A stretch of DNA of 45,561 nucleotides, taken from IMG/VR virus record IMGVR_UViG_3300010370_005917, positions 1 to 45,561 of that record; one strand, written 5' to 3'. The translations under genes were made by a program, and so were the position numbers. Below, piece by piece: positions 1-22,181 of the stretch; positions within the stretch are counted from its first letter, which is position 1; each line of letters starts with the position of its first letter. Source of the DNA: a virus. The notes beneath the pieces were generated by a model. It was not told where the DNA came from. It made no database searches and saw only the letters and a program-made list of their open reading frames with translations.

Positions 1-1338
1 GAAGGTTTATTCCCGACAAAACCCGAAGGTAATTTAAACCAAGAACCAAATAAAACAAAACAAGTAACATTTCGTTGGCGTGAAAAAGCAATGGATTTTA
101 ATCCTTGGGAAGTTTTGCATTTTCGTCTATTAGGTGATGATAGAAGATTACCTTACGGTACTTCTATGTTAGAAAAAGCAAGACGTATTTGGAAACAACT
201 ATTATTGTCAGAAGACGCAATGTTAGTTTATCGTGTTGTTAGAGCACCAGAAAGAAGGGTTTTTAAAATTTATGTCGGTAATATCGATGATAAAGATGTT
301 GATGCATACGTACAAAAAATAGCAAATAAATTTAAAAGACAACAATTAGTGGACCAAAAAACAGGTCAAGTTGATTTACGTTACAATACATTAGCAGTTG
401 ACCAGGATTATTTTGTTCCTGTTCGTGACCCAAATGCACCAAACCCCATAGACACTTTGGCTGGTGCGTCTAATTTAGGTGATATTGCCGATATTGAATA
501 TATTCAGAAAAAACTTTTAACAGCTTTAAGAGTTCCTAAAGCTTTTTTAGGTTTTGAGGAATCTGTTGGTGAGGGTAAAACTCTTTCTTTATTAGATATT
601 CGTTTTGCTAGAACAATCAATAAGATTCAACAATCTATGATTCAGGAGTTAAATAAAGTAGCTATTATTCATCTTTATATTCTCGGTCTTATTGATGATT
701 TAAATAATTTCCAACTTAATTTAACTAATCCTTCAACCCAAGGTGAGGTCTTGAAAATTGAACAATGGAAAGAAAAAGTTACACTTTATAAAGATTTGGT
801 TTCACAAATCGATGCAGGATTTGCACCAACTTCACATATGTGGGCAAAGAAAAATATTTTCCATTGGACAGATGAAGAAATACAAATTGATATTGAACGT
901 CAAAGATTAGAACGTGCCGCAGCTAAGGAACTTGAAACTAGTAATGAAATTATTAAAACAACTGGTTTATTTAAACGTGTTGATAAAATATACGGAGAAA
1001 TTAAACCAACAGGAGGGGGTGAAGCTGCCACAACAACTGGTGGAGGTGGCGGCGCTGAATTAGGTGGAGCTCTTGGTGGCGGTGCTGAATTAGGTGGGTT
1101 TGGTGGCGGAGGTGGTGAAGCACCAGCCGAAGAAACCCCAGCGGCTGAAGCTCCAGGAACTGAAGCTGGATTTGGTGAAGGTTTCCGTAATCAAGATAAA
1201 AATATCATTGACAAATTATTATTGGAAGGCATCAGCAAAAATGAAGATATTATGATGATGACAGAAGGTATTAAAGATTTGATTGGTGAACAAGATGAAG
1301 AAAACAATGATGAAGATGAATTATTGTTAAATTCATAA
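1..1338 (+). CDS. 20: Portal vertex protein, T4 gp20-like (5' end missing)
   Basis: This is the C-terminal part of a T4-type portal protein, the dodecameric ring at the capsid vertex through which DNA is packaged and to which the neck attaches. The frame is open to the left edge, so the true start lies outside; the first ATG in the window (91) is internal. Family-typical stretches include PYGTSMLEKARRIWKQL, the run EDAMLVYRVVRAPERRVF, VDTL-like PIDTLAGASNLGDIADIEY, and LTALRVPKAFLG. The last third departs from T4: a Gly-rich low-complexity segment around residues 310-360 of the visible ORF carries two GGGAELGG-like units and is followed by an acidic tail. A late-promoter-like motif and a hypothetical gene follow directly. 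Confidence 0.95.
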   Translation, partial: EGLFPTKPEGNLNQEPNKTKQVTFRWREKAMDFNPWEVLHFRLLGDDRRLPYGTSMLEKARRIWKQLLLSEDAMLVYRVVRAPERRVFKIYVGNIDDKDVDAYVQKIANKFKRQQLVDQKTGQVDLRYNTLAVDQDYFVPVRDPNAPNPIDTLAGASNLGDIADIEYIQKKLLTALRVPKAFLGFEESVGEGKTLSLLDIRFARTINKIQQSMIQELNKVAIIHLYILGLIDDLNNFQLNLTNPSTQGEVLKIEQWKEKVTLYKDLVSQIDAGFAPTSHMWAKKNIFHWTDEEIQIDIERQRLERAAAKELETSNEIIKTTGLFKRVDKIYGEIKPTGGGEAATTTGGGGGAELGGALGGGAELGGFGGGGGEAPAEETPAAEAPGTEAGFGEGFRNQDKNIIDKLLLEGISKNEDIMMMTEGIKDLIGEQDEENNDEDELLLNS

Positions 1339-1346
1339 TATTTATA
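1337..1346 (+). promoter_or_regulatory. Candidate late promoter motif AATATTTATA
   Basis: This sense-strand AATATTTATA lies between the portal gene and the gene starting at 1362, ending 15 bases before the ATG. The same motif in the same orientation precedes many other late-type genes here. A promoter role is inferred from this recurrence and from the gp55-like sigma factor in the window. Confidence 0.45.
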
Positions 1347-1361
1347 TAGTAAAAAATAATT

Positions 1362-2123
1362 ATGAATTTCGGAACCATAAAAGATACTTACGCAAAAATT
1401 TTAATTGATTCTTATGTTAATGAATCTAAAAAAGAAAAATTAACATATAGAAATTTTATTAAAATGATTTCTGAGAATGAAATCTTAAAAACACAATTTG
1501 TTGTTTATAAAAATATTGAGAATGGTTATTTCACTTCTGAAGTTAGTGCAACAGAATACCTCAAAGAAAATATTTCTCTTTTTGATAAATTTAATAAAAA
1601 ACAAATTATCGAAGAAAACATTAAATTACGTAAAAGTTTAGGTAAAAAATCTTTAGTAGAAACTAAAGATTTACATGAAGCTTTACATAATTTGATTACT
1701 TTGGATAAAGACGTTACAACTATCAACACTTTAACTGAATCTTTTGAGGTGGTAAAAAATTGGTTGGTTACACCTAAAAAAATAGAAGAATCTAAAAAAG
1801 AAAAAAACAATGTTGATGTTAATAAATTTTTAGATGTTGTAACTAAAAAGTACAATGAAAAATATTCTGACATTTCAGAAGGGGAGAAAAAAATTGTAAA
1901 AGCAATTTTATCTGAAAGCAACAAAGAAAAAGAAAGTGTACTTAATGAAATCAAAACTGAAACTATTGACCTTTTAACTAAATCAATAAAGGAACATAGT
2001 AGTAATATAGATATTAAAGTTAAATTACTAGAGGCTAAAGATTTATTATACAATACTAATTTTAACCCAGAAACATTTAAAACAGATATCTTAAAAATTT
2101 ATGACTTAAAAAATAGTCTCTAA
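1362..2123 (+). CDS. Hypothetical protein between portal and glutamine synthetase
   Basis: I do not recognise this 253-residue protein. It is Lys/Glu/Asn-rich, predicted mostly helical, with no cysteine pattern, signal peptide or membrane segment. Its position next to the portal, its likely late promoter at 1337-1346 and the strong terminator right after its stop suggest a head or head-assembly protein. In T4 the genes between 20 and 23 include small core proteins, but I see no sequence resemblance that would allow a name. The start follows an A-rich leader (taaaaaataatt) without a Shine-Dalgarno, like its neighbours. Function is unknown. Confidence 0.85.
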   Translation: MNFGTIKDTYAKILIDSYVNESKKEKLTYRNFIKMISENEILKTQFVVYKNIENGYFTSEVSATEYLKENISLFDKFNKKQIIEENIKLRKSLGKKSLVETKDLHEALHNLITLDKDVTTINTLTESFEVVKNWLVTPKKIEESKKEKNNVDVNKFLDVVTKKYNEKYSDISEGEKKIVKAILSESNKEKESVLNEIKTETIDLLTKSIKEHSSNIDIKVKLLEAKDLLYNTNFNPETFKTDILKIYDLKNSL

Positions 2124-2124
2124 G

Positions 2125-2148
2125 AAAAACCCCTCACGGGGTTTTTTT
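2125..2148 (+). terminator. Rho-independent terminator
   Basis: The stem AAAAACCCC / GGGGTTTTT closes on a TCAC loop and continues into a T run immediately after the stop of the gene ending at 2123. It separates the portal-side transcript from the glutamine synthetase gene. Confidence 0.85.
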
Positions 2149-2157
2149 CTTTATGGC

Positions 2158-2172
2158 TGGTTTTCAAAACCA
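2158..2172. promoter_or_regulatory. Small inverted repeat upstream of glutamine synthetase
   Basis: TGGTTTTCAAAACCA is a 15-base near-palindrome with 7-base arms and one central base. It lies about 55 bases before the glutamine synthetase start, in the only stretch that could hold that gene's own promoter. It could be an operator, but in A+T-rich DNA it could also be chance. No late-type ATATTTAT motif is present in this leader. Confidence 0.25.
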
Positions 2173-2226
2173 AAAATTATTATTACTATTGAAACATATA
2201 ACAAATTTTTAAAAATAAACAAATTT

Positions 2227-3369
2227 ATGAGTAAAGTTTTTTTGGAGTATATCTGGTTAGACGGTAACAACCCACAAAATTTAAGAAGTAAAACCAAAGT
2301 TGTAGAAGACATCGAAACTTTGGAATCAAAAGGAAATTCAAAACAAGGTTATCCTGAATCATATCCACTTTGGAGTTTTGATGGTAGTTCCACAAAACAA
2401 GCTGGTGATGAAGAATACGGTTTTAAAGGTACTGACTGTATATTAAAACCAGTTTACGTTGTGGATGACCCATTTAGAGGTGGTAAACATAAATTAGTTT
2501 TTTGTGAGGTTTTTAACCCTGATGGTATTACCCCACATAAATCAAACACTAGAAATAAATTAAGAGAATTATTATCCGAACTTAAATTTAAAGAGTTTGA
2601 TGCGAACCATTCTGAAGTACCTTGGTTTGGTTGGGAACAAGAGTATGTTATAACACATGCAGTTGACCCTACTAATAGATTTAAATTTGGTGGTGGTATT
2701 CCTTTGGGTTTCAATAGTACACAAGAAGGAAAACCAAGACCACAGGGTGATTATTACTGTGGTGTTGGTGGACTTAATGTTATTGGTCGTGAAATAGTGG
2801 AAGAACACCTTCAAAAATGTGCCGAAATTGGTTTGAATATTGGTGGTATTAACGCAGAAGTTCTTATTGGTCAATGGGAATATCAAATTGGCCCTGTAAC
2901 CGCACTTAATGGTTCCGACCAACTTTGGGTTTCTCGTTACATTTTGGAAAGAGTTGCTGAGAAAAAAGGGTTCGGTATTTCTTATCACCCAAAACCAATT
3001 AATGGTGATTGGAATGGTAGTGGTTGTCATGTTAATTTCTCAACCAAAGAAATGCGTGAAAAGGGTGGTCTTAAAAAGATTTTAGAAGCTTGTGAAAAAT
3101 TAGAATCACGCCATTTGGAACATATTAAAAATTATGGTGAATCAAATGAAAAACGATTAACTGGTAAACACGAAACCTCCAGCATGGAGAAATTCAGTTT
3201 TGGTAATTCTGATAGAGGTTCAAGTATTCGTATTCCAGTTCATACTTATACAAACGAAAGAGGTTATTTTGAAGATAGAAGGCCAGCTGCCAATTGTGAC
3301 CCTTATAAAGTTTCATATATGATGGTTGAAACTGTATTTGACAAGGCTGGAATAACTATCGAAGAATAA
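2227..3369 (+). CDS. glnA: Glutamine synthetase, type II (eukaryote-like GSII)
   Basis: It should make glutamine from glutamate, ammonia and ATP in the infected cell. At 380 residues it matches the short GSII class rather than the roughly 470-residue GSI or the much longer GSIII. In order it shows WSFDGSS (49-55), the catalytic-face GWEQEY (135-140), NAEVLIGQWEYQIGP (209-223), NGSGCHVNFSTKEMR (263-277), ENEKRLTG-like SNEKRLTGKHETSS (306-319), NSDRGSSIRIP (327-337) and EDRRPAANCDPY (349-360). These are the main GSII signature blocks, so the enzyme looks intact. It lies between head genes on the same strand but is preceded by a terminator and followed 8 bases later by a small gene and another terminator. 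It also lacks the late-promoter motif, so it reads as an independently expressed cassette. The family call is secure; the benefit to the phage is inference. Confidence 0.95.
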   Translation: MSKVFLEYIWLDGNNPQNLRSKTKVVEDIETLESKGNSKQGYPESYPLWSFDGSSTKQAGDEEYGFKGTDCILKPVYVVDDPFRGGKHKLVFCEVFNPDGITPHKSNTRNKLRELLSELKFKEFDANHSEVPWFGWEQEYVITHAVDPTNRFKFGGGIPLGFNSTQEGKPRPQGDYYCGVGGLNVIGREIVEEHLQKCAEIGLNIGGINAEVLIGQWEYQIGPVTALNGSDQLWVSRYILERVAEKKGFGISYHPKPINGDWNGSGCHVNFSTKEMREKGGLKKILEACEKLESRHLEHIKNYGESNEKRLTGKHETSSMEKFSFGNSDRGSSIRIPVHTYTNERGYFEDRRPAANCDPYKVSYMMVETVFDKAGITIEE

Positions 3370-3377
3370 TCTTATGT

Positions 3378-3809
3378 ATGAAAAAAGGAAAAGAAATTAA
3401 ACTTAATCTGCCCTATAATTATAATATAATATCAGGTACTGTAGATAATAAAAACCCAGAATCAATTTACATTCAAATATCGGCTTGGGGTCAACCAAAA
3501 AATAATGAAGAAGAAAATTTTGATTCTGTTATTAAACAAAAATCCAAAAAAGTTAAAAAAGTTTTACACGAATCTTTAGATATAGAACAATTTTTTCCTA
3601 AAGTAATTGTTGATTTTAACATGGCTTCTTCTGGAATTAGTTTCAAAAAAAGAAGTTATATGTCTGTTGAAATGACACTTTTTCAGAAAAATCCACTACC
3701 CATAAATTCAGATAAACTCTTACCAAGTTTAAACAAAATATCGGAAAAAATAATAACTGATGTTTTTGAAAGAGACGAAGATTTTAAGTTTTATAAACGT
3801 AAAAATTAA
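3378..3809 (+). CDS. Hypothetical protein downstream of glutamine synthetase
   Basis: This 143-residue protein starts 8 bases after the glutamine synthetase stop and ends at a strong terminator, so the two genes probably share a transcript. It is Lys- and Ser-rich, with alternating hydrophobic segments suggesting a beta-rich fold (NIISGTVDN, IYIQISAWG, KVIVDFNMASSGISF, YMSVEMTLF). I see no catalytic motif, cysteines or membrane segment, and I do not recognise the family. It could be a virion accessory protein as easily as a partner of the synthetase; I found no evidence for either. Confidence 0.8.
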   Translation: MKKGKEIKLNLPYNYNIISGTVDNKNPESIYIQISAWGQPKNNEEENFDSVIKQKSKKVKKVLHESLDIEQFFPKVIVDFNMASSGISFKKRSYMSVEMTLFQKNPLPINSDKLLPSLNKISEKIITDVFERDEDFKFYKRKN

Positions 3810-3810
3810 A

Positions 3811-3837
3811 AAAATCCCCGATAACTTCGGGGATTTT
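3811..3837. terminator. Terminator hairpin after the glutamine synthetase cassette
   Basis: TCCCCGA and TCGGGGA pair around a TAACT loop. A runs precede and T runs follow, so the hairpin could act on either strand; here it ends the rightward transcript carrying the genes at 2227 and 3378. Confidence 0.8.
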
Positions 3838-3846
3838 CATTTTATC

Positions 3847-3867
3847 AATATTTATCGCATATTTATA
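3847..3867 (+). promoter_or_regulatory. Two tandem candidate late promoter motifs before gp21
   Basis: Two sense-strand copies of ATATTTAT lie 12 bases apart (3847-3855 and 3859-3867) just before the prohead protease gene. The second ends 7 or 13 bases before the two possible ATG starts. Confidence 0.45.
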
Positions 3868-3874
3868 AAGAAAT

Positions 3875-4669
3875 ATGCATATGAAAATAATAAAACCAGG
3901 AGAATCAGGAAGAGGAATTCTTGTTGAATACGACGCAGGATATCTTTCCCCTGAATTATCATATAAAGGAATTAGTAACAAAGATTTAATTAGAGAATTT
4001 AAATCAGGTACTAATATCGGTAAAGATGGTTCATTACCAGAAGTAATTACCATGTATGCCGTACTTCAAAAGTGGGGTGTTGAAAATAAAAACGGTAGAG
4101 TTTACCCCAAAGAAATTCTAGAAAGAGAAAATATTAGATATCAAGAATACATTAAAATGGGTACTTCTTTGGGTGAATTAAACCATCCGGAATCTTCCAT
4201 TATTGATGCTGACCGTGTTTCACATAGAATTACCAGAACTTGGTGGGAAGGTAGAACACTTATGGGTGAAATGGAAATTGATACCACACCTGGTTATCAC
4301 AAACTTGGAATTATTAGTTCAGTTGGTGATAAAGTGGTTAATATGGTTAGAAAAGGTTGGACAGTAGGTATCTCTTCTCGTGGTGTCGGTTCTTTAAAAC
4401 AAGAAGATGGCAAAAATGTCGTTCAAGATGATTTTGAATTAATTTGTTGGGATATTGTAACCTCACCATCAACCCCAGGTTCTTGGATTTCAACTGATTC
4501 TGGTGATTTAAAAACATTTACTGAATCAGAATCAAAAGGTTGTAACGGATATTCTTGTCAATGGAATTTAATGGAAGATTCTGAATCTACCACAACAATT
4601 TCTTTAAGTAATTTTCATTCTGAAAAAGACAAAAAGATAATAGATGGTTTAAATAAATTTTTAAAATGA
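3875..4669 (+). CDS. 21: Prohead core protease, T4 gp21-like
   Basis: This serine protease matures the prohead by cutting scaffold, capsid and internal proteins after (L/I)-x-E. The 264-residue length and the blocks around ENKNGRVYPKEILERENI (70-87), the His in ELNHPESS (101-108) and the Ser in VGISSRGVGS (164-173) match the T4 gp21 family (peptidase U9/S77 group). DFELICWDIVTSPS (186-199) is the usual block after the serine. Two in-frame ATGs (3875 and 3881) are possible; both fit the leader. Its stop overlaps the next ATG (ATGA), so the tagged protein at 4666 is translationally coupled to it. That coupling is meaningful because the tag of the next protein ends in a gp21-type cleavage site. 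Confidence 0.92.
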   Translation: MHMKIIKPGESGRGILVEYDAGYLSPELSYKGISNKDLIREFKSGTNIGKDGSLPEVITMYAVLQKWGVENKNGRVYPKEILERENIRYQEYIKMGTSLGELNHPESSIIDADRVSHRITRTWWEGRTLMGEMEIDTTPGYHKLGIISSVGDKVVNMVRKGWTVGISSRGVGSLKQEDGKNVVQDDFELICWDIVTSPSTPGSWISTDSGDLKTFTESESKGCNGYSCQWNLMEDSESTTTISLSNFHSEKDKKIIDGLNKFLK

Positions 4670-4950
4670 GTAAAGTAATTAGATTAAACGAAAGTGATAT
4701 CGAAAAATTAGTTGTTAAAATCTTAAATGAGGCAACACCAAAAAAAGAGTTGGAAAGAAAGGCTACTAAATATCGTAAATCAGACTTTGAACCTTATAAA
4801 AGAGAAGAAGAAATAAAATCTGTTTTCGGTCCTTATGGCGAAGATATTCCACCTCAAGCTCTTGAATACATGAGAAAGAATCCTGCATCGGTAATTAAAA
4901 AATTAACCAAAATTTATGGTGCTGATAAAATAAAATCATATTTAGAATAA
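4666..4950 (+). CDS. Small tagged protein, candidate internal capsid protein
   Basis: It is 94 residues, starts by ATGA overlap with the prohead protease gene, and has no recognisable domain. Residues 1-22 form an amphipathic segment (VIRLNESDIEKLVVKILNE) ending L20-N21-E22 before Ala23, which fits the T4 gp21 cleavage rule. The same segment begins the next gene (4955) and the gene at 11541. By analogy with T4 internal proteins I infer that the N-terminus targets the protein into the prohead and is then removed. The remaining part is charged, Lys/Glu/Pro-rich, and could bind DNA or core proteins. The mature function is unknown. Confidence 0.8.
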   Translation: MSKVIRLNESDIEKLVVKILNEATPKKELERKATKYRKSDFEPYKREEEIKSVFGPYGEDIPPQALEYMRKNPASVIKKLTKIYGADKIKSYLE

Positions 4951-4954
4951 AAAA

Positions 4955-5290
4955 ATGGCAAAAGTAATTAGATTAACAGAAAAAGATATTGAAAAATTGG
5001 TATCAAAAATTATTCGTGAAGAAAAAAGAATCGCCGAAACTTATAATATGGATGATTTAATTTTTGAAAAATGGGAAGGTGATGTAGAAGTAGAGAAAAC
5101 TGGTGAATTTGCTGGTATGACAATTGGTGAATTAAACAAAGAGATTATCAAGATTAAAAAAGAAAACGAAAAATACAAAGAAGAAGGTAAAAAAGTACCT
5201 GATGAAAATAGAGAAAGAATTGGTAAATTGTATTTTGCTAAAAGGTCAAAACAAGGTTGGCCAGGAAAGGGTAAATCCAAAGCAAAATAA
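4955..5290 (+). CDS. Small tagged protein, candidate internal capsid protein
   Basis: This 111-residue protein lies four bases after the previous tagged gene. Its N-terminus is a close copy of that protein's (VIRLTEKDIEKLVSKIIRE), ending I20-R21-E22 before Glu23, while the rest differs. That points to a mobile or duplicated targeting module on different cargos. The body is very rich in Lys and Glu, with a basic C-terminus (SKQGWPGKGKSKAK) that could bind nucleic acid. I recognise no family. The gene is followed by an unusual repeat-rich spacer and a terminator. Confidence 0.8.
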   Translation: MAKVIRLTEKDIEKLVSKIIREEKRIAETYNMDDLIFEKWEGDVEVEKTGEFAGMTIGELNKEIIKIKKENEKYKEEGKKVPDENRERIGKLYFAKRSKQGWPGKGKSKAK

Positions 5291-5314
5291 TTTTTCGGCT
5301 TTTATGCTTTTTTA

Positions 5315-5323
5315 AATATTTAT
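5315..5323 (+). promoter_or_regulatory. Possible late promoter motif AATATTTAT in the repeat-rich spacer
   Basis: A sense-strand AATATTTAT lies about 125 bases before the next start (5449) and directly before the palindrome and direct repeats. It is much farther from a start codon than the other copies, and a terminator lies between, so a transcript from here may be a short untranslated RNA, or the match may be chance. Confidence 0.25.
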
Positions 5324-5330
5324 TTGGCGC

Positions 5331-5370
5331 GCTTTTGCAAAAGCAGCAAGCAGCAAAAAGCAAGCAGCAA
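5331..5370. repeat. Palindrome plus two 12-base direct repeats
   Basis: GCTTTTGCAAAAGC (5331-5344) is a perfect 14-base palindrome. It is followed by two exact copies of AGCAAGCAGCAA (5345-5356 and 5359-5370) separated by AA. The stretch is visibly richer in G+C than its surroundings and lies in a non-coding gap of about 158 bases between 5290 and 5449. It could be a protein-binding site or recombination scar; two copies without regular spacers do not make a CRISPR. Confidence 0.6.
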
Positions 5371-5384
5371 TAGAAAAAATTTTT

Positions 5385-5421
5385 ATAAGGAATTATGGTT
5401 GACATAGTTCCTTATTTTTTT
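5385..5421 (+). terminator. Long hairpin with T run
   Basis: ATAAGGAA (5385-5392) pairs with TTCCTTAT (5408-5415). Inside, TATG pairs with CATA around a GTTGA loop, and a T run follows. It would end rightward transcription from the tagged genes or from the possible motif at 5315. Confidence 0.65.
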
Positions 5422-5448
5422 TAATATTGGTTTATAAAAATAAAAATT

Positions 5449-5691
5449 ATGAATGAAATTACCAACAAATACTACTTGGTTAAAGTAGAATTCGAAACCA
5501 TTAATGAAACAAATGGTAAACCTAAAAAAATTAAAACCCAATATTTGGTTGATGCAATGTCTTGTACTGAAGCTGAAGCACGTGCAAGAACTTACCTAAG
5601 TGATTCTGTTATGGATTATGAAATTGTTAATGTAAGTAAAAGTCCTATTGAAGATGTTATTGAAATGTCAGTAACAGAAACAAAAGCTTAA
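5449..5691 (+). CDS. DUF4494-like small protein
   Basis: It is 80 residues. A beta-hairpin-like start (YYLVKVEFETI), a run ending in TQYLVDAMSCTEAEARARTYL and a final YEIVNVSKS resemble DUF4494, a small domain known mainly from Bacteroidota and their phages and of unknown function. The match is from memory of the pattern (YLVDA followed by TEAEAR), so the name is tentative. It supports a Bacteroidota host. The gene follows a hairpin terminator and has an A-rich leader. Its end overlaps by four bases the end of the leftward metallopeptidase gene. Confidence 0.75.
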   Translation: MNEITNKYYLVKVEFETINETNGKPKKIKTQYLVDAMSCTEAEARARTYLSDSVMDYEIVNVSKSPIEDVIEMSVTETKA

Positions 5692-6164
5692 TGTCTATAT
5701 TTTTTAGGTAGACCAACCTTATCGGCAACTTTTTGAAATACACCTCCGTGTTTTCTTGCCGTTTCATTCTCTACTCCATGAGCAGCGTGAATAAGCTCAT
5801 GTTTAATTATATCCTCAACATATTCTTTGTCTTCTAAGGCATCGGGATGGACTTTCATTATCCCGATGTCTTTTTCGTTTTCAGGATGTACAAAAGAACC
5901 AATTTTTCCTTTTTTAATATTATCATCAACTTTAACAATAATATTATCATCACTTACAGGTTCCTCACCTGTAACACTCATATAGGCAGTTTTAACTCTT
6001 TTTTGTAACTTATCTTTTAATTTATCCAGTTTTTTTGTTTCTTCTGGGTAATTAGAATTTTTTATTGCCTTTTTTTGTGTGTAATCAACGTACATCATAA
6101 AATCGTCTTTTTCAGTACGATTTTCAACGTATTCTCTTAAAATTTTTTTAATAATTGGTTTCAT
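5688..6164 (-). CDS. Tagged zinc metallopeptidase (HELIH), candidate ejected protease
   Basis: It is 158 residues from the chosen start; the frame stays open 25 codons upstream. I chose 6164 because the late-type motif ATATTTATT lies four bases before it and because the protein then begins MKPIIKKILRE, the short form of the tag seen at 9746 and 12008. L9-R10-E11 is a predicted gp21 site. The C-terminal half holds the zinc motif H122-E-L-I-H126 followed by HGGVFQKVADKVGLP, whose His139 is a plausible third ligand, as in SprT/WLM-type peptidases. It is read opposite to its head-gene neighbours. I infer a small protease packed in the capsid; the substrate, in the prohead or in the host after injection, is unknown. 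Confidence 0.8.
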   Translation of the reverse strand: MKPIIKKILREYVENRTEKDDFMMYVDYTQKKAIKNSNYPEETKKLDKLKDKLQKRVKTAYMSVTGEEPVSDDNIIVKVDDNIKKGKIGSFVHPENEKDIGIMKVHPDALEDKEYVEDIIKHELIHAAHGVENETARKHGGVFQKVADKVGLPKKYRH

Positions 6165-6168
6165 CAAT

Positions 6169-6177
6169 AATAAATAT
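6169..6177 (-). promoter_or_regulatory. Candidate late promoter motif for the metallopeptidase
   Basis: On the minus strand this reads ATATTTATT and ends four bases before the chosen ATG at 6164. If it is a -10 element, the transcript would be almost leaderless. Confidence 0.4.
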
Positions 6178-6241
6178 TTGCTCTTTTTGAAAAAAAAATT
6201 ATATTTTTTTATTGACTTTCTGATTTTTTGTAAAAACATAC

Positions 6242-6250
6242 ATATTTATT
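6242..6250 (+). promoter_or_regulatory. Candidate late promoter motif for scaffold and capsid genes
   Basis: Sense-strand ATATTTATT lies about 55 bases before the scaffold start. It is the only such motif upstream of the scaffold-major capsid pair, so it may drive both. Confidence 0.45.
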
Positions 6251-6258
6251 AAAAAAAA

Positions 6259-6275
6259 TCCGCATAACATGCGGA
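6259..6275 (+). promoter_or_regulatory. 5' leader hairpin before the scaffold gene
   Basis: TCCGCAT and ATGCGGA form a perfect 7-base stem around AAC, 9 bases downstream of the motif at 6242. The hairpin would sit close to the 5' end of the scaffold-capsid transcript and might stabilise it. No T run follows, so a terminator is unlikely. Confidence 0.45.
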
Positions 6276-6304
6276 AATAATTACGCAATAATAAAAAATT
6301 GAAA

Positions 6305-7852
6305 ATGGCAAACGAAAAAAAATCAATTATTGAGGAAGCTCTTCTCGAAGCAGAAAAAATCGACGCTACTTTCAAATCGAACGCAAAAGAAATACTGGCT
6401 CAAACAATGAGTTCAGAAATTGAAGAAATGGTAAAGGAATCTCTTACAGGTTCAAAACAAAGATTGAAAGAAGAAGATGAAGAGGAAATGGAACTAACTT
6501 CTGATGTTGACACTGATGAAGAAGACATTGAATTGTCTGACGAGTCTGATGAAGACGAAGAAGACATGGATATGGATTTAAGTGATGAGTCTGATGAAGA
6601 TATCGATATGGAAATGGATTTGGAAGACGAATCTGATGACGATGAAGATATGGAATTAGACTTAGATTTAGGTGATGAAACCGAAGGTGAGGAAATGATG
6701 GAACCAGAAATGGTAGACACTGTTGACCTTACTGACAGTTCTGACGCTGATGTAATCTCTGTATTTAAGAAAATGGGTCCAGAGGATGAAATCGAAGTTG
6801 TGAACGACAACGGCATGGTTACTCTAAAAGACAAAAAATCAGGTTCCGAATATAGAATTGAACTTAATTCTCAAACCGGTGAAGTAGGTGATGTGGAAAT
6901 GTCAACTATGGAAGAAGGTTTAGAGGATTCAAACCAAGTTATATATGAAGTTGTTATCGAAGATGATTATATGGACGAGGATTACATGGATGAAGACTAT
7001 ATGGACGAGGATTACATGGATAACAAAGATGAAATGTCAATGCCAATGTACATGAAACGTAAAAAAGAAATGAGTTATGAAAAAAGTGGTTTAAAACACC
7101 CTGAAAAGGCTGATTTAAATGACAACAAAAGAATTTCTTCTTACGAAAAAACTAGAGGTATGGCCATCGAGAAATCTATGGAAGATAACGAAGATGAAAT
7201 GTCTTCTTACATGAAGTCTTACATGAAACATGGTGATGAAGATCACATGGGTGGTATGAAGTCTTACATGAAGAAAAAACATGAAGAAGATTACGCTAGT
7301 AGAACAAAATCCACAAAAGGTAGATATTACACAGGTAACAGAACTAATCCAAATGCAATTGCAAGAATGGGTAGTTCAGAATACATGGGTGAATCTAAAT
7401 CTCCACAAATCTCTAAACTCATCAACGAAAACACAAATTTAAATGAATCTGTATCAACTCTTAGAAAAGAAAATGAAGAATTGAAAGGAAACCAAGAAAA
7501 AATGGTTGACGCATTAAAACAATTCAGAAACAAACTTCAAGAGGTAGCAGTTTTCAACAGCAATCTTACTTACGCAGTTAGATTATTCACTGAACAGAGT
7601 ACTACAAAAGAAGAGAAACAAGAAATTTTGAAAAGATTAGATGAGGCAAAATCTTTAAAAGAATCTCAATCAATCTACAAACAACTTGTAAAAGAATTAT
7701 CAAATTCTAAAACTCCAATTAAAGAATCTGTTGAGGAAAAACTTAATAAAACTGCATCAAGTGGATCAGTTCAAATTAGTGAACAAACAGTTTTTGTACA
7801 CCCAGAATTACAAAACATGAAAAAACTTTGGGAGTACGGTTACAAAAAATAA
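6305..7852 (+). CDS. Prohead scaffold (core) protein, T4 gp22-like by position
   Basis: It probably forms the internal scaffold on which the capsid assembles and is later degraded by gp21. The call rests on position directly before the major capsid gene and on composition rather than residue-level homology. The N-terminal part is helical and charged. Residues about 50-130 are an extreme Asp/Glu/Met-rich run, then a small beta-like segment (DEIEVVNDNGMVTLKDKKSG). Four tandem DYMDE-type units follow, then Met/Lys repeats (SYMKSYMK) and a long coiled-coil C-terminal third. An upstream TTG (6299) extends the frame by two codons; the ATG at 6305 fits the leader better. It shares a transcript with the capsid gene 34 bases downstream. 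Confidence 0.8.
   Translation: MANEKKSIIEEALLEAEKIDATFKSNAKEILAQTMSSEIEEMVKESLTGSKQRLKEEDEEEMELTSDVDTDEEDIELSDESDEDEEDMDMDLSDESDEDIDMEMDLEDESDDDEDMELDLDLGDETEGEEMMEPEMVDTVDLTDSSDADVISVFKKMGPEDEIEVVNDNGMVTLKDKKSGSEYRIELNSQTGEVGDVEMSTMEEGLEDSNQVIYEVVIEDDYMDEDYMDEDYMDEDYMDNKDEMSMPMYMKRKKEMSYEKSGLKHPEKADLNDNKRISSYEKTRGMAIEKSMEDNEDEMSSYMKSYMKHGDEDHMGGMKSYMKKKHEEDYASRTKSTKGRYYTGNRTNPNAIARMGSSEYMGESKSPQISKLINENTNLNESVSTLRKENEELKGNQEKMVDALKQFRNKLQEVAVFNSNLTYAVRLFTEQSTTKEEKQEILKRLDEAKSLKESQSIYKQLVKELSNSKTPIKESVEEKLNKTASSGSVQISEQTVFVHPELQNMKKLWEYGYKK
6964..7023 (+). repeat. Tandem 15-base repeat within the scaffold gene
   Basis: Four in-frame units of the GATTATATGGACGAG type encode DYMDE, DYMDE, DYMDE, DYMDN. 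Units 1 and 3 are nearly identical, as are 2 and 4, so a 30-base unit may have been doubled. Copy number could vary between relatives by slippage. Confidence 0.75.
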
Positions 7853-7886
7853 TAATAACAAATAACAAATCCAAAAAACAACTAAA

Positions 7887-9659
7887 ATGGGATATTTATT
7901 AAAATCAGGTGAAGTTGGAAACATCGGACTTAAACATCAAAAAGCTGTCCGTGAAGCAACTATCAACAAATGGGAATCTTTAGGATTCTTGGAAGGTCTT
8001 GAAGGCCACATCAAAGAAAACATCGCTTTGTTATACGAAAACCAAGCGTCTGTTCTTATCAACGAAACTACTGAAGCTACTGGTGGTGCATCTACTGGTT
8101 CTTTCGAAACTGTAGTTTTCCCAATCGTAAGACGTGTTTTCTCTAAATTATTAGCGAATGACATCGTGTCTGTACAAGCTTTGAACTTACCAATTGGTAA
8201 ATTGTTCTACTTCGTACCTAAAACTTCTGACAGAATTGAAGCTGGTGGTTTCGCAAGTAACACTAACGGTGGTACATCTAGTAATCCTCAGATGCCAATC
8301 GCAACTTGTATCAACTGTGCTTCTGCAGCTACTTTCTCTGCATGTGCTAAAAACCTTTACGATAGATTCTACAACGATGGTATGTTCGATCAATCAAAAG
8401 GTCAAATCACATTGAAAGCGGTTACAGGTACTGCATATGTATTAACAGCTTGTACTTCAGGTTCTGAATGGGCAGCAGGTAAAACTCCAGCAGCTTCTGA
8501 CGGTTCATTACGTTACCAAGTTGTTCAGGTGGCTGGATTTAACACCACATCAGCTGGTCGTCTTTCTGGTCCAGATGGTAATGAAATGGATACTGAAGCT
8601 TTCTTAGCATCTTTAACTGTTGTTGCTACTAACACAATTTCAACATTAACAGGAAGAGTTATCTTCAACGTAGGTGATTCAATTCCTTTCCGTGTGGTAA
8701 CACAAAAATATGGTACAGGTATTATTAATTACGGTGATATTTGTACTCCAAGTGGAAACCTTTACATCGAACTTGACCTTACAACTCCAACTTGTATAAC
8801 ATGTTCTGAAAACACTTTCGATGGTTATATTGGAGCTAATTACACTGGTACAACTATTAACGGTGGTAGTACTTTAGTGTTCTGGAGACAGTACGCTGAC
8901 CTTGAGGCTGAATCAGCACTTGCTGAAGTAAGTTTTGAACTTGATTCTGTAACAGTTTCTGTGACTGAAAGAAAGTTGAGAGCTTCTTGGACTCCTGAAT
9001 TAGCACAAGACGTTAGTGCATTCCACAACATCGACGCTGAAGCTGAATTGACAGCATTGTTGTCAGAGCAGGTTGCAGCTGAGATTGACCGTGAAATCCT
9101 TATCGACTTGAGAAAAGGTGCAGCATGGCAATTACGTTGGGATTACAACGGATGGAAGCGTCTACCTAACAACAATGGTTACACTCAAAAAGATTGGAAC
9201 CAGACGTTGATTACCGCTATCAACCAAATCTCAGCACAAATTCACAAATCAACCCTTCGTGGTGGTGCTAACTTCGTTGTTGTATCTTCTGAGGTATCAG
9301 CAGTATTTGATGACTTGGAATACTTCCACGTATCTAACGCATCTCCTGAACAAGATCAGTATAACATGGGTATCGAGAGAATTGGTACATTAGGTGGACG
9401 TTACCAAGTTTACCGTGATCCTTACGCTCCAGCTTACTCTGTAATTATTGGTCACAAAGGTAAGTCATTGTTAGACACTGGTTACATCTACGCTCCATAC
9501 GTACCGATGCAGTTAACTCCAACAATGTATAACCCATTCAACTTTGTACCTGTAAAAGGTATCATGACTCGTTACGCAAAGAAATTTGTTAACAACAGAT
9601 TCTACGGTCATATCAGAGTTGATGGTCTACGTACATTTGACGTTAGAGAATTACGTTAA
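7887..9659 (+). CDS. 23: Major capsid protein, T4 gp23-like
   Basis: It builds the capsid hexamers. The block RKLRASWTPELAQDVSAFHN (363-382) followed by IDAEAELTALLSEQ, and the C-terminal YIYAPYVPMQLTPTMYNPFN then PVKGIMTRYAKK, are hallmark gp23 stretches; 590 residues is somewhat long for the family. A likely maturation site is I58-N59-E60 before Thr61, close to the T4 cut after residue 65. Between about 130 and 330 lies an insertion with seven cysteines, including C141-x-x-C144 and C303-x-x-C306, absent from T4. Codons are visibly biased toward C-ending forms (AAC, TTC, TAC) compared with the glycan genes, as expected for the most expressed phage protein. A strong terminator follows. Confidence 0.95.
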   Translation: MGYLLKSGEVGNIGLKHQKAVREATINKWESLGFLEGLEGHIKENIALLYENQASVLINETTEATGGASTGSFETVVFPIVRRVFSKLLANDIVSVQALNLPIGKLFYFVPKTSDRIEAGGFASNTNGGTSSNPQMPIATCINCASAATFSACAKNLYDRFYNDGMFDQSKGQITLKAVTGTAYVLTACTSGSEWAAGKTPAASDGSLRYQVVQVAGFNTTSAGRLSGPDGNEMDTEAFLASLTVVATNTISTLTGRVIFNVGDSIPFRVVTQKYGTGIINYGDICTPSGNLYIELDLTTPTCITCSENTFDGYIGANYTGTTINGGSTLVFWRQYADLEAESALAEVSFELDSVTVSVTERKLRASWTPELAQDVSAFHNIDAEAELTALLSEQVAAEIDREILIDLRKGAAWQLRWDYNGWKRLPNNNGYTQKDWNQTLITAINQISAQIHKSTLRGGANFVVVSSEVSAVFDDLEYFHVSNASPEQDQYNMGIERIGTLGGRYQVYRDPYAPAYSVIIGHKGKSLLDTGYIYAPYVPMQLTPTMYNPFNFVPVKGIMTRYAKKFVNNRFYGHIRVDGLRTFDVRELR

Positions 9660-9680
9660 TCGTATCAAACTCTATAAATT

Positions 9681-9713
9681 AAAAAGGTGGTTCAAAAGAC
9701 CACCTTTTTTTTT
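9681..9713 (+). terminator. Strong terminator after the major capsid gene
   Basis: AAAGGTGGT (9683-9691) and ACCACCTTT (9699-9707) form a perfect 9-base stem around TCAAAAG and run into a long T tract. Confidence 0.9.
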
Positions 9714-9731
9714 ATTTTATACCAACTAAAG

Positions 9732-9740
9732 ATATTTATA
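9732..9740 (+). promoter_or_regulatory. Candidate late promoter motif ATATTTATA
   Basis: The sense-strand motif (preceded by G) ends only five bases before the ATG at 9746. It is isolated from the capsid transcript by the terminator at 9681-9713, so the gene at 9746 needs its own promoter nearby. Confidence 0.5.
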
Positions 9741-9745
9741 TTAAT

Positions 9746-10405
9746 ATGAAAGATTTAATTCGTAAAATATTAAAAGAAACCGAGGAATTTGATTGGGCAA
9801 AAGATATTATAAATAAACCAATTAACAGTGAGGCTGAATTATTATATTTAGAACTTAAAAAATTCTTAGAACCCAAAAAAGCAAAAAATGGTAGTAACTA
9901 TAGAGTAAATGTTGATAGGGATAAAAATTTTTCAGAACAAGATATATATTATATTGGTGACCGTGCTGGTGTTTATGAAAGTTGGTTTGCACGAGATTTT
10001 AATATTAAATCTTTAAAAGATACAATTGAACGTACCGTTAATCAAACAAGAAGTGAATATGTTCGAGAAGAATATGGAAACTTACTTAAAGATTTAGAAC
10101 CTTTTTTAAAAAAAACAATGTTAAGAGAGGCTGAGGAATTTGATTGGGTACCAAAAGATATTTTTCGAACTGAAGATTCTATTATTTCTTATTTAGAAGA
10201 CAACTATCCTGTACAACGTTTGACAGTTCCCAATTTATATTCAGATAAACTTTTCCTTATGATAGATGAAAAAATTTATTTTATTGAAAATAATAAATCT
10301 TTAATAACAAATATGTTATATAATAATTTATCTGAAATTTTTCCTGGTATTGAAACTGGTATTCTTCGTCGTTCAATTAGAAAATTTTTAAACCAAATAG
10401 TTTAA
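9746..10405 (+). CDS. Protein with two tag-plus-EEFDW modules, candidate internal capsid protein
   Basis: It is 219 residues. It starts MKDLIRKILKE followed by TEEFDW, and the same pattern recurs inside: KKTMLRE followed by AEEFDWVPKDI at about 122-139. Both copies end in an (I/L)-x-E gp21-type site (L9-K10-E11 and L126-R127-E128). The gene thus looks like a fusion or tandem duplication of two tagged proteins, and gp21 could split it into two mature polypeptides. The two bodies are not obviously alike beyond the tag. DDFNW follows the tag in the gene at 12008, so the aromatic-acidic box may belong to the module. The mature function is unknown. Its stop overlaps by four bases the end of the next, convergent gene. 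Confidence 0.85.
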   Translation: MKDLIRKILKETEEFDWAKDIINKPINSEAELLYLELKKFLEPKKAKNGSNYRVNVDRDKNFSEQDIYYIGDRAGVYESWFARDFNIKSLKDTIERTVNQTRSEYVREEYGNLLKDLEPFLKKTMLREAEEFDWVPKDIFRTEDSIISYLEDNYPVQRLTVPNLYSDKLFLMIDEKIYFIENNKSLITNMLYNNLSEIFPGIETGILRRSIRKFLNQIV

Positions 10406-10668
10406 AAATCATCACCATAATCATCAACATCCCCGTAATCATTACTATAGTAGTTTTTATTATCTTTATAGGCTTTCATATTAGCCAAATCAAGAGAAAC
10501 TCTACGTAATTCTTTTTGTAATATTTCGATATCATCTAATTTTTCCATAAACAAATTATAACCGATATCAATTATCGTTTCTTCAGTTTCGGTTAAATCT
10601 TCTTTACTAATAGATAATTTACTAGTAACTAAATCAAAATATTTTTCTCTGAGTGTTTTAAATTCCAT
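10402..10668 (-). CDS. Hypothetical small protein with acidic tail
   Basis: From the ATG at 10668 it is 88 residues; a TTG six bases upstream is possible but less likely. It is helical, with a central IDIGYNLFMEKLDDIEILQKEL-type region suggestive of a coiled coil, and ends in a Tyr/Asp-rich tail (NDYGDVDDYGDDF). I do not recognise it. It lies 15 bases downstream of the gene at 10684 on the same strand and probably shares its transcript. Confidence 0.7.
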   Translation of the reverse strand: MEFKTLREKYFDLVTSKLSISKEDLTETEETIIDIGYNLFMEKLDDIEILQKELRRVSLDLANMKAYKDNKNYYSNDYGDVDDYGDDF

Positions 10669-10683
10669 ACACAAATATAGTGA

Positions 10684-11439
10684 TTATTTTTGGAATTCTT
10701 CTTTTTTGATACCTTTTTCTTCTGCTATTTTTCTGTTACTTTTACCTTTTGTTGTTTCCATAATGATTTTCATTATGTCAGCCGGAATAACCTCCATCAG
10801 TTCTAATAAATTTTGTGCCGATAATTGAGCGTCTTTACTATCCCAAATAGTTAAACCGTTTTTTTCTTTTGTTAAATCGTTGTGAAATGCAACTTTTGCA
10901 TAAATATTATCCCTAATTTCTTCTTCTTTAAAAGATTTATCAATGTAAAAAATCAGTGGACCAGTTTCTGTATATTGATTAAAATATTTTTTGAAATCAT
11001 TTTGTTCTGAAGAAACACACCATTTAGTTGATTTGCCGTACATATTAGAACTTCTACTCGTTAAAGGTTGTAAAACCAAATAACGGTCATCTTCATAAAC
11101 AACTAAAGTTTCGTTCTTTTTAACCTGACTTTTGGTTATTTTTTCTTTTGCTTTTTTAATGGAATCAACAATTTCTTGATTACTGGAATAAGAGTAGATA
11201 TCTTTATTTACCAATAAATTTTTTGAAGATAAGTCTTCAAACTCTTTAATAGTGTCAAACATATCTTTAAAGGTATTATTATTAAGTTCATTAATTAACC
11301 AATCCACCCAGGTTTCTGCCTGTTTAACCATAAAAGGTAAATACTTATTAGTACTAGTGGGGTCATTTTTTGCCAAAACATCTATCAAGTCAATGATAAA
11401 TTTTGAGTTCTGATCTTTGATATCTTTCTTTTTTGCCAT
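10684..11439 (-). CDS. Hypothetical protein with a YGKSTKWC motif
   Basis: It is 251 residues. The N-terminal half is helical. The centre holds LVVYEDDRYLVLQPLTSRSS followed at 134-141 by YGKSTKWC, then FKKYFNQY and a hydrophobic strand PLIFYID. The Tyr-Gly, Lys-Trp-Cys and aromatic spacing look like a conserved catalytic or binding core, and I have the impression of similar stretches in other phage hypothetical proteins, but I cannot name the family. A late-type motif lies five bases upstream of the ATG. It lacks the (I/L)-x-E tag of its neighbours. The C-terminus contains a helix-turn-helix-like SNRKIAEEKGIKKEEF. Confidence 0.8.
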   Translation of the reverse strand: MAKKKDIKDQNSKFIIDLIDVLAKNDPTSTNKYLPFMVKQAETWVDWLINELNNNTFKDMFDTIKEFEDLSSKNLLVNKDIYSYSSNQEIVDSIKKAKEKITKSQVKKNETLVVYEDDRYLVLQPLTSRSSNMYGKSTKWCVSSEQNDFKKYFNQYTETGPLIFYIDKSFKEEEIRDNIYAKVAFHNDLTKEKNGLTIWDSKDAQLSAQNLLELMEVIPADIMKIIMETTKGKSNRKIAEEKGIKKEEFQK

Positions 11440-11444
11440 TTTTC

Positions 11445-11453
11445 AATAAATAT
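11445..11453 (-). promoter_or_regulatory. Candidate late promoter motif, leftward
   Basis: The minus strand reads ATATTTATT, ending five bases before the ATG at 11439. With the rightward copy at 11516 it makes this 101-base gap a divergent promoter region. Confidence 0.45.
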
Positions 11454-11515
11454 ATAATTAAAACTATAAAATTTATTTGAAAACGTCAAATTTTTTTACT
11501 TTTATTTTTTTAGTG

Positions 11516-11524
11516 ATATTTATA
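11516..11524 (+). promoter_or_regulatory. Candidate late promoter motif ATATTTATA, rightward
   Basis: The sense-strand motif preceded by G ends 16 bases before the ATG at 11541. Confidence 0.5.
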
Positions 11525-11540
11525 TAAATAAAATATTAAT

Positions 11541-11963
11541 ATGAAAAAGGTAATTAGATTAAACGAAAACGATATAGAAAATTTGATTAAAAAAATCATT
11601 CGTGAAGAAGACGAGATGATGTCATCAAACCCAAAAGGGGAAAAAAAGATCGAATTATTACAAACAAACAACGGTGAATTATCTTCTGTAGAAGATATCA
11701 TACAAATGGTTAGTGGGGCTGGTCAGAAATTTGGTGATTTATGTCAACAAGTAACTGGTAATGATGGTTTCGCTAAAGAAATTGATGGTATGAGAAGACA
11801 ATTTTTGGCACTTCAAAATAAACTTTTAGATTCCAAAGAAAAGATAGCTAAATTTGTACAACAAAAAAATATGATGCAACAAGCTGATTATATGAAAAGG
11901 AAAAAAATGGAACATGAAAAGAAAAAAGAAGATGCAATACGAGTAGGAAAATATTACGCTTAG
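11541..11963 (+). CDS. Tagged helical protein, candidate internal capsid protein
   Basis: It is 140 residues. Its first 22 residues (KVIRLNENDIENLIKKIIRE) match the long tag at 4666 and 4955 and end I20-R21-E22 before Glu23. The rest contains a long helical region with heptad-like hydrophobics (QFLALQNKLLDSKEKIAKFV) and a strongly basic Lys/Met-rich C-terminus (MKRKKMEHEKKKEDA) that could bind packaged DNA. It stands alone between a divergent promoter region and a bidirectional terminator. An internal capsid protein is inferred from the tag and late-type promoter; no family was recognised. Confidence 0.82.
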   Translation: MKKVIRLNENDIENLIKKIIREEDEMMSSNPKGEKKIELLQTNNGELSSVEDIIQMVSGAGQKFGDLCQQVTGNDGFAKEIDGMRRQFLALQNKLLDSKEKIAKFVQQKNMMQQADYMKRKKMEHEKKKEDAIRVGKYYA

Positions 11964-11980
11964 TAATAAAAACTAAATAA

Positions 11981-12007
11981 AAAAACCCCGACAAAATCGG
12001 GGTTTTT
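11981..12007. terminator. Bidirectional terminator
   Basis: AAAAACCCCGA and TCGGGGTTTTT form a perfect 11-base stem around CAAAA, flanked by A and T runs. It separates the convergent genes ending at 11963 (+) and 12008 (-). Confidence 0.9.
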
Positions 12008-21386: not shown

Positions 21387-22181
21387 TTAGTCTTTTAAAA
21401 TTTGTTTTTTATTGTTGTTATTTACCTTTTCATCATCTATTTGGTCAAAAATCTCTTCAATTACTTTAATAATTGGATTCCTAACAATATCCTCTTCATT
21501 TCTAAGTTCAACAACACCAAATTTATCTTTTTCTTTAAATTTATCAAGGACAATTTCAAGAGAACTTTCTTTTTTATTTCTAATATCTTTTTGTTTAATA
21601 TCACCTAAAATTATAATCTTTGAATTATCACCAATCCTAGTCATAAGAGTACGCATATTATCTAAAGATATGTTTTGTGCCTCATCGATAATAATAACCG
21701 AATTGTCTATACTTCTACCTCTTACGTAGGCTATTGGTTTTATTTCAATAACTTTTTGTTCACGTAATCTACCAGTTAAATACTCACCAACAATCTTATT
21801 AAAATTATCCAAAAATGAATCCATAAAAGGTTCCATTTTTTCTTCCATAGTCCCCTTTAAAAAACCAATTTCTTCATCTTTTAAAGTGGTAACAGATTTA
21901 ACGAGAATGATTTTTTTATAAGGTGTTTGGGGGTTTTTAACTAATTTAAGAGCTTCAGCACAACTAAGAAAAGTCTTACCACTTCCAGGGAAACCTGATG
22001 CTATGATAACTTCTTTTTCTTTAATAGCTTGTATTAATTTTCTTTGATTTTCAGTTTTAGGTTTAACTTCAACTCGTATTTGATTTAAAGTTTTATCTTC
22101 TTCCGGATGTCTACCGATAAATGATTCAATTTCTTGAATTTCATCTTCGGTTAGTTTTTTATTTCTCCTTCTGTTTGTCAT
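21387..22181 (-). CDS. phoH: PhoH-like ATPase
   Basis: It is 264 residues. KPKTENQRKLIQAIKEKEV leads into Walker A GFPGSGKT (63-70), and SVIIIDEAQN (161-170) is Walker B. KIIILGDIKQKD is the sensor-like block of PhoH proteins. These ATPases are very common in T4-like phages, where their exact role, possibly in RNA metabolism or phosphate stress, is unsettled. Its start overlaps the end of the reductase gene at 22159 by 23 bases, so it is expressed as the last part of the glycan transcript. Confidence 0.92.
   Translation of the reverse strand: MTNRRRNKKLTEDEIQEIESFIGRHPEEDKTLNQIRVEVKPKTENQRKLIQAIKEKEVIIASGFPGSGKTFLSCAEALKLVKNPQTPYKKIILVKSVTTLKDEEIGFLKGTMEEKMEPFMDSFLDNFNKIVGEYLTGRLREQKVIEIKPIAYVRGRSIDNSVIIIDEAQNISLDNMRTLMTRIGDNSKIIILGDIKQKDIRNKKESSLEIVLDKFKEKDKFGVVELRNEEDIVRNPIIKVIEEIFDQIDDEKVNNNNKKQILKD

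Follow-up and report, generated by a model that had tools for sequence, protein, structure and literature searches.

The window analyzed here, a 45,561-nucleotide stretch of viral DNA (IMG/VR record IMGVR_UViG_3300010370_005917), encodes a complete type II glutamine synthetase (GSII) within the head-gene cluster of a T4-like phage. Homology, active-site residues, and the predicted fold together confirm this assignment. It is quite likely that the phage GSII is active, that it is expressed as a non-late gene from an older insulated unit built around the phage gene g143, and that it tops up host glutamine during infection.

The synthetase and its place among the head genes

Pfam matches identify the window as a fragment of a T4-like phage with consecutive genes for the portal, the prohead protease, a scaffold-like protein, and the MCP (Gp23). 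The pair formed by GSII and g143 sits between g253 and the prohead protease (Table 1), with g143 starting 8 nt past GSII. Relatives were gathered by IMG/VR scans, from which the best 80 loci per scan were taken, and their records are mostly fragments. Many GSII-less relatives came from the scans that used the protease and g143. Among them, the spacing between GSII and g143 is mostly 4–11 nt, with few overlaps. Wherever this stretch is present, portal, g253, g143, and protease follow one another in that order, in some cases with small genes interspersed. In relatives, such small variable genes (roughly 75–205 aa and 90–130 aa) often lie between g253 and g143. They are absent from the window and from two further records (L002 and L090). 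Elsewhere in the window, a large glycan island on the minus strand (18429–39780) encodes glycosyltransferases, sugar epimerases, and UDP-GlcNAc 2-epimerase and UDP-sugar dehydrogenase domains. A PhoH gene lies within the same region (21387–22181).

Table 1. Features of the GSII–g143 unit and its neighbors in the window.
Feature	Position	Strand	Evidence
Portal (gp20-like), partial at the window edge	91..1338	+	Pfam Portal_T4, 7.6e-66
g253, head-cluster protein without assigned function, 253 aa	1362..2123	+	Order conserved in relatives; late motif at 1338
Intrinsic terminator, upstream side of the unit	2123..2148	+	-13.6 kcal/mol; position conserved in 29/29 relatives
Leader with putative promoter, without late motif	2149..2226	+	Leader alignment of 13 near relatives
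Small inverted repeat TGGTTTTCAAAACCA	2158..2172	.	Present in the window, not conserved in relatives
GSII, 380 aa, catalytic residues all intact	2227..3369	+	NCBIfam GlnII, PDB GSII, AF2, maize mapping
g143, conserved phage-specific protein, 143 aa	3378..3809	+	Sits between g253 and protease in relatives, whether GSII is there or not
Intrinsic terminator after g143, terminator-like on both strands	3811..3837	+	-16.6 kcal/mol; 25/25 GSII-carrying relatives
Two late motifs ATATTTAT before the protease	3848..3866 (3848 and 3859)	+	Upstream of the protease in 22/25 GSII-carrying relatives
Prohead protease (gp21-like)	3875..4669	+	Pfam Peptidase_S77, 1.4e-27

The GSII product matches the NCBIfam GlnII model (NF041605) over residues 6–371 with 393 bits (E 1e-117), a score below the strict equivalog cut-off of 500 bits set for that model. 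Solved GSIIs among the PDB sequences match it at up to E 1e-95. The sequence is identical to maize glutamine synthetase at D56, E129, E131, E192, E199, G245, H249, N251, R291, E297, R311, R316, Y328, E330, and R332. We take all of these positions to be the metal, glutamate, ammonia, and ATP active-site set of the GSII family. The catalytic set is invariant across 65 distinct phage GSIIs and in a 33-row alignment of phage and cellular sequences. An AF2 model computed from an alignment of homologues has a pLDDT of 80 and a pTM of 0.86, and its TM to solved GSIIs is about 0.8–0.9. Full-length homology, catalytic residues, and predicted fold are therefore features that the phage protein has in common with the GlnII/GSII family (NF041605; 3fky, 4bax, and 2d3a), and the sequence points to a catalytically active enzyme. 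The initial annotation had placed a complete GSII between the portal and the prohead protease. The GlnII and PDB matches, the identical residues, and the Portal_T4 and Peptidase_S77 neighbors bear this out.

Expression signals and the older g143 unit

All promoter and terminator calls in this analysis are computational. The upstream terminator ends 78 nt before GSII, and the downstream one lies directly 3′ of g143. Both are present in every relative scored at the respective side (Table 1), with stem sequences that vary and pairing that is kept. None was found at three control sites in GSII-carrying phages (upstream of g253, the scaffold gene, and the MCP gene), and shuffled sequences likewise gave none. 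The strong terminators that had been proposed on each side of GSII and the 143-residue gene are thus well supported. The upstream one is predicted to insulate the unit from the upstream head genes.

The motif ATATTTAT probably serves this phage group as its late promoter element. In GSII-carrying phages, it precedes g253 in 24/24 cases and, in most cases, the protease (Table 1). It occurs upstream of GSII in none of 25 GSII-carrying relatives, which upholds the earlier claim that the unit lacks the late motif. Late transcription is predicted to resume 3′ of the unit at the ATATTTAT pair. In the window, ATATTTAT recurs before head genes at 1338, 3848, 3859, 5316, 6242, 9732, and 11516.

The leader of GSII contains a putative promoter composed of GGTTTTC (2159–2165), an 18-nt spacer, and TACTAT (2184–2189), at which several relatives have TATAAT. 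This TATAAT-like box holds a near-constant place across relatives. Judged from these features, the leader promoter would be active and used apart from its neighbors. The timing of GSII expression is unsure because the promoter of the GSII clade deviates from the sigma70 consensus. The initial annotation had also described a leader of the unit's own with a small inverted repeat. The repeat TGGTTTTCAAAACCA is indeed present in the window. However, near relatives do not conserve it and its RNA fold is no better than chance, and a role as a conserved regulator was rejected for lack of conservation. An Rfam search of window positions 1–12000 returned no riboswitch or other element above the gathering score.

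Relatives carry g143 at the same place whether GSII is present or absent, and the gene was found in 493 IMG/VR stretches, reaching phages far outside the GSII clade. In an older clade without GSII, a promoter of the type TTGACT-N16/17-TATAAT precedes g143 in 29 of 34 phages, a set in which L132 is listed although it belongs to the other clade. Promoters matching at 10 or more of 12 positions occur at a fraction of 0.83 in this clade versus 0.10 in shuffles, and the late motif never precedes g143 there. In some members of the GSII clade that lack GSII, a terminator and leader like those of the GSII unit stand directly before g143. On this sequence evidence, the non-late g143 unit within the head cluster is older than GSII, which was added inside it.

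The AF2 model of the g143 product has a pLDDT of 90. Fold comparison gave no confident PDB match, only generic ones with Z under 8, and returned one uncharacterised phage protein (A0A8S5L9A5) with a TM of 0.89. Searches for g143 found no clear Pfam family, no PDB-sequence match, and no match in a named phage. In GSII-less phages, this widespread gene (the window copy and relatives L097–L099 and L140–L174) has a host-type promoter and no late motif, although late head genes surround it.

Inheritance, loss, and apparent transfer of the phage GSII

A quick, midpoint-rooted tree of portal, protease, MCP, and g143, of modest depth like the other trees, has 34 phages without GSII on one side and 35 on the other, 24 with the gene and 11 without. 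The presence of GSII on this tree requires five changes, which is compatible with a single gain followed by several losses. GSII identity tracks that of the portal (Mantel r 0.81) and of g143 (r 0.80; p 0.001), and dN/dS is about 0.105 for GSII versus 0.111 for the portal. The clade as a whole shares the gene, and the lowest identities are 57%. By these comparisons, GSII is an old resident that has been inherited vertically with the head genes under purifying selection. The notion of a recent accidental insertion, which the initial annotation had favored, does not agree with this history.

Several relatives that retain the head genes have deleted GSII, as judged from the scars left behind. Both ends of the gene are fused in L117, the 3′ end is left in L126, and a weaker trace, a short stretch of GSII, is found in L113/L115. 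No GSII was detected elsewhere in the searched records of GSII-less members, which are mostly fragments and include one of 380 kb. Repeated loss implies that GSII is conditional rather than essential. A phage of the older, otherwise GSII-less clade (L145/L157) carries a C-terminal glutamine synthetase remnant (LDGKGYFGDIRPASNVNPYR...) just upstream of g143, and this remnant is closer to the phage GSIIs of the head slot than to cellular GSIIs. The slot may already have held GSII when the two clades diverged, or the gene may have reached L145/L157 by recombination. The number of gains is uncertain because of the L145 remnant.

A phylogeny against cellular GSIIs, which had been proposed as a check on the initial annotation, places 43 phage GSIIs in one clade (SH-aLRT 99), and the sister group is dominated by Bacteroidota-type cellular GSII. 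Among the matches listed, the best cellular one, from a Bacteroidetes MAG, is 52% identical to the window GSII, and most phage GSIIs of both genomic contexts are 56% or more identical to it. The phage members differ from cellular GSIIs in forming a clade of their own, in having longer loops, and, in the window, in being encoded within a head cluster. The host of the window phage is inferred from phylogeny and literature alone. The hosts predicted for moraphages, mostly Bacteroidota, agree with the sister group of the phage clade (PMC12619734).

The second genomic context is that of huge phages, including records of 642 and 635 kb. In the careful tree, 22 GSIIs of this group form one clade (100/98) inside the head-slot GSIIs (99/97, 96/86), and in no bootstrap tree do the head-slot GSIIs form a single clade. 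In these huge phages, GSII stands alone and is encoded on the other strand from its neighbors, with a terminator after it in 17 of 22 cases. It adjoins a late-sigma-like gene, and genes for the portal, head closure, clamp loader, and baseplate lie in the same neighborhood. The lone position on the opposite strand and the terminator argue for a stand-alone rather than a head role. In the L019–L081 group (e.g., L032, 10001–11086), this second conserved slot lies beside a gp55-like late sigma gene, and GSII is preceded by a recurring element that resembles AACAAAGTTTA. Portals of the huge phages are about 20% identical to that of the window where they are detected, whereas the GSIIs are about 60% identical. 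This difference is most simply read as the result of sideways transfer from one phage lineage to another. The GSIIs of LR756501 (L084, 735 kb), L294, and L295 do not belong to the main phage clade and are probably separate acquisitions from cells.

Proposed role and alternative readings

Nitrogen enters biosynthesis through glutamine synthetase. In the proposed mechanism, a T4-like lineage would have captured GSII long ago from a donor related to the cellular GSIIs of Bacteroidota type. The gene would have been inserted just before g143, inside an existing non-late, terminator-insulated unit of the late head cluster. During infection, GSII would be made from the non-late promoter, separately from the late head genes, and would convert ATP, glutamate, and NH3 to glutamine. 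The larger glutamine pool would feed host rather than phage amidotransferases in purine, pyrimidine, and amino-acid synthesis, with a benefit mainly when nitrogen assimilation limits phage yield. A benefit limited to nitrogen shortage would account for the long persistence of GSII under purifying selection as well as for its repeated loss. We infer the timing of expression and the benefit of the phage enzyme along these lines.

The genes examined in the window and in window-like records offer no partner for the enzyme. No glutamine amidotransferase domain was found in the Pfam-scanned window genes, which cover most of the glycan island. PF00117 was absent from all four sampled GSII-carrying window-like records and, among the sampled records, matched only in G021, G024, and LR756501. 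PF13522 and P-II were absent from all 14 records searched, and no glutamine consumer, PII, or other nitrogen gene of the tested families was found in the sampled window-like records. Glutamine amidotransferase partners were rejected on these counts for PF00117 and PF13522. Since the tested records lack PII and PF13522, and the four window-like ones also lack PF00117, the glutamine would serve host enzymes. The initial annotation had linked GSII to amino-sugar synthesis in view of the glycan island. With no amidotransferase among the scanned glycan genes of the window or, for the two families, in the four window-like records, a special link of this kind is not supported.

The absence of linked glutamine consumers from window-like records would also suit a signaling role, in which GSII lowers glutamate/2-oxoglutarate or free ammonium and so reports nitrogen sufficiency rather than feeding biosynthesis. 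The apparent uncoupling of GSII expression from the late genes fits such a role as well. However, the sampled records have no phage PII gene, and we regard signaling as unlikely.

Structural co-option, in which the decameric ring of GSII would serve as a head-assembly or virion protein and its position would be functional, is very improbable. Its constant location close to portal and protease, within the head cluster of the GSII clade, would accord with it, as would the huge-phage copies among portal, head-closure, and baseplate genes. However, the head-slot gene lacks the late motif and is insulated by terminators, its catalytic residues are invariant, several relatives have deleted it yet keep their head genes, and the older clade keeps its head order intact without it. 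The initial annotation had itself raised the prospect of an ancient, fixed head-associated gene devoid of metabolic activity. GSII is ancient, but its deletion in several relatives and its intact active site do not fit an essential head protein.

A changed substrate is less credible still. Alignments reveal several phage-specific insertions or longer loops relative to solved GSIIs, which could suit a ligase of the glutamine synthetase fold that makes another gamma-glutamyl compound, like the gamma-glutamylpolyamine ligases. However, the GlnII score of the protein (393 bits) far exceeds its score for gamma-glutamylputrescine synthetase (30 bits), and D52, E316, R310, and R330 are the same as in GSII.

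Morons are insulated foreign phage genes with their own promoter and terminator. The initial annotation had described GSII and g143 as such an insertion, and the likeness would hold in that an insulated unit, predicted to be non-late, lies inside a late gene cluster. It fails for joint acquisition, as the unit is not foreign as a whole nor absent from close relatives: g143 occurs throughout, GSII alone varies, and the co-acquired cassette was rejected because GSII-less relatives also carry g143. Here the core gene g143 is ancestral, and the foreign enzyme entered later, alone, and was long-lived. Least credible of all is a recent moron cassette acquired jointly by the ancestor of the window phage, for which the insulated two-gene unit and its short spacing could be cited, given that g143 extends far beyond the GSII clade, keeps its place without GSII, and that GSII itself is shared clade-wide at identities as low as 57%.

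The preferred reading, an active GSII that supplements host glutamine, accords with auxiliary metabolic genes in general. GSII is a host-type enzyme under purifying selection with sporadic loss, and the virion does not need it, as GSII-less relatives keep their head genes and some bear scars of the deleted copy. It differs from these genes in its fixed, clade-wide slot in the head cluster and in its apparent transfer from phage to phage into huge phages. Phage glutamine synthetase has been read as an auxiliary metabolic gene in two reports (PMC12619734, PMC13037316). Nine of 25 moraphages, with hosts predicted to be mostly Bacteroidota, carry the enzyme (PMC12619734), and glnA has been reported in jumbo phages and viromes (PMC13037316, PMC11944383). 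The passages on the moraphage and jumbo-phage enzymes give no synthetase type, phylogeny, position, insulation, or losses (PMC12619734, PMC13037316). In the literature searched, which falls short of most subscription journals, the phrases "phage-encoded glutamine synthetase" and "viral glutamine synthetase" were not found, nor did any paper mention "type II glutamine synthetase" alongside "phage". New features appear to be the constant, insulated position within an older unit, the scars of deletion, and a phage-specific GSII clade that was passed on to huge phages.

Phage copies of glutamine synthetase have so far been mostly entries in lists of auxiliary genes. The GSII described here has a defined place, an expression unit, a selection test, scars, and a phylogeny that separates the phage clade from cells. 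Attention is also drawn to g143, a common phage gene with a host-type promoter in the middle of a head cluster. On balance, we think that a long-lived, insulated, non-late g143 slot in a widespread group of T4-like phages was invaded by GSII, which gave rise to a phage-specific clade and from there reached phages of several hundred kb, and that nitrogen assimilation would thus be a lasting phage function. Viral nitrogen assimilation can now be tested through related phages that have kept or deleted GSII.
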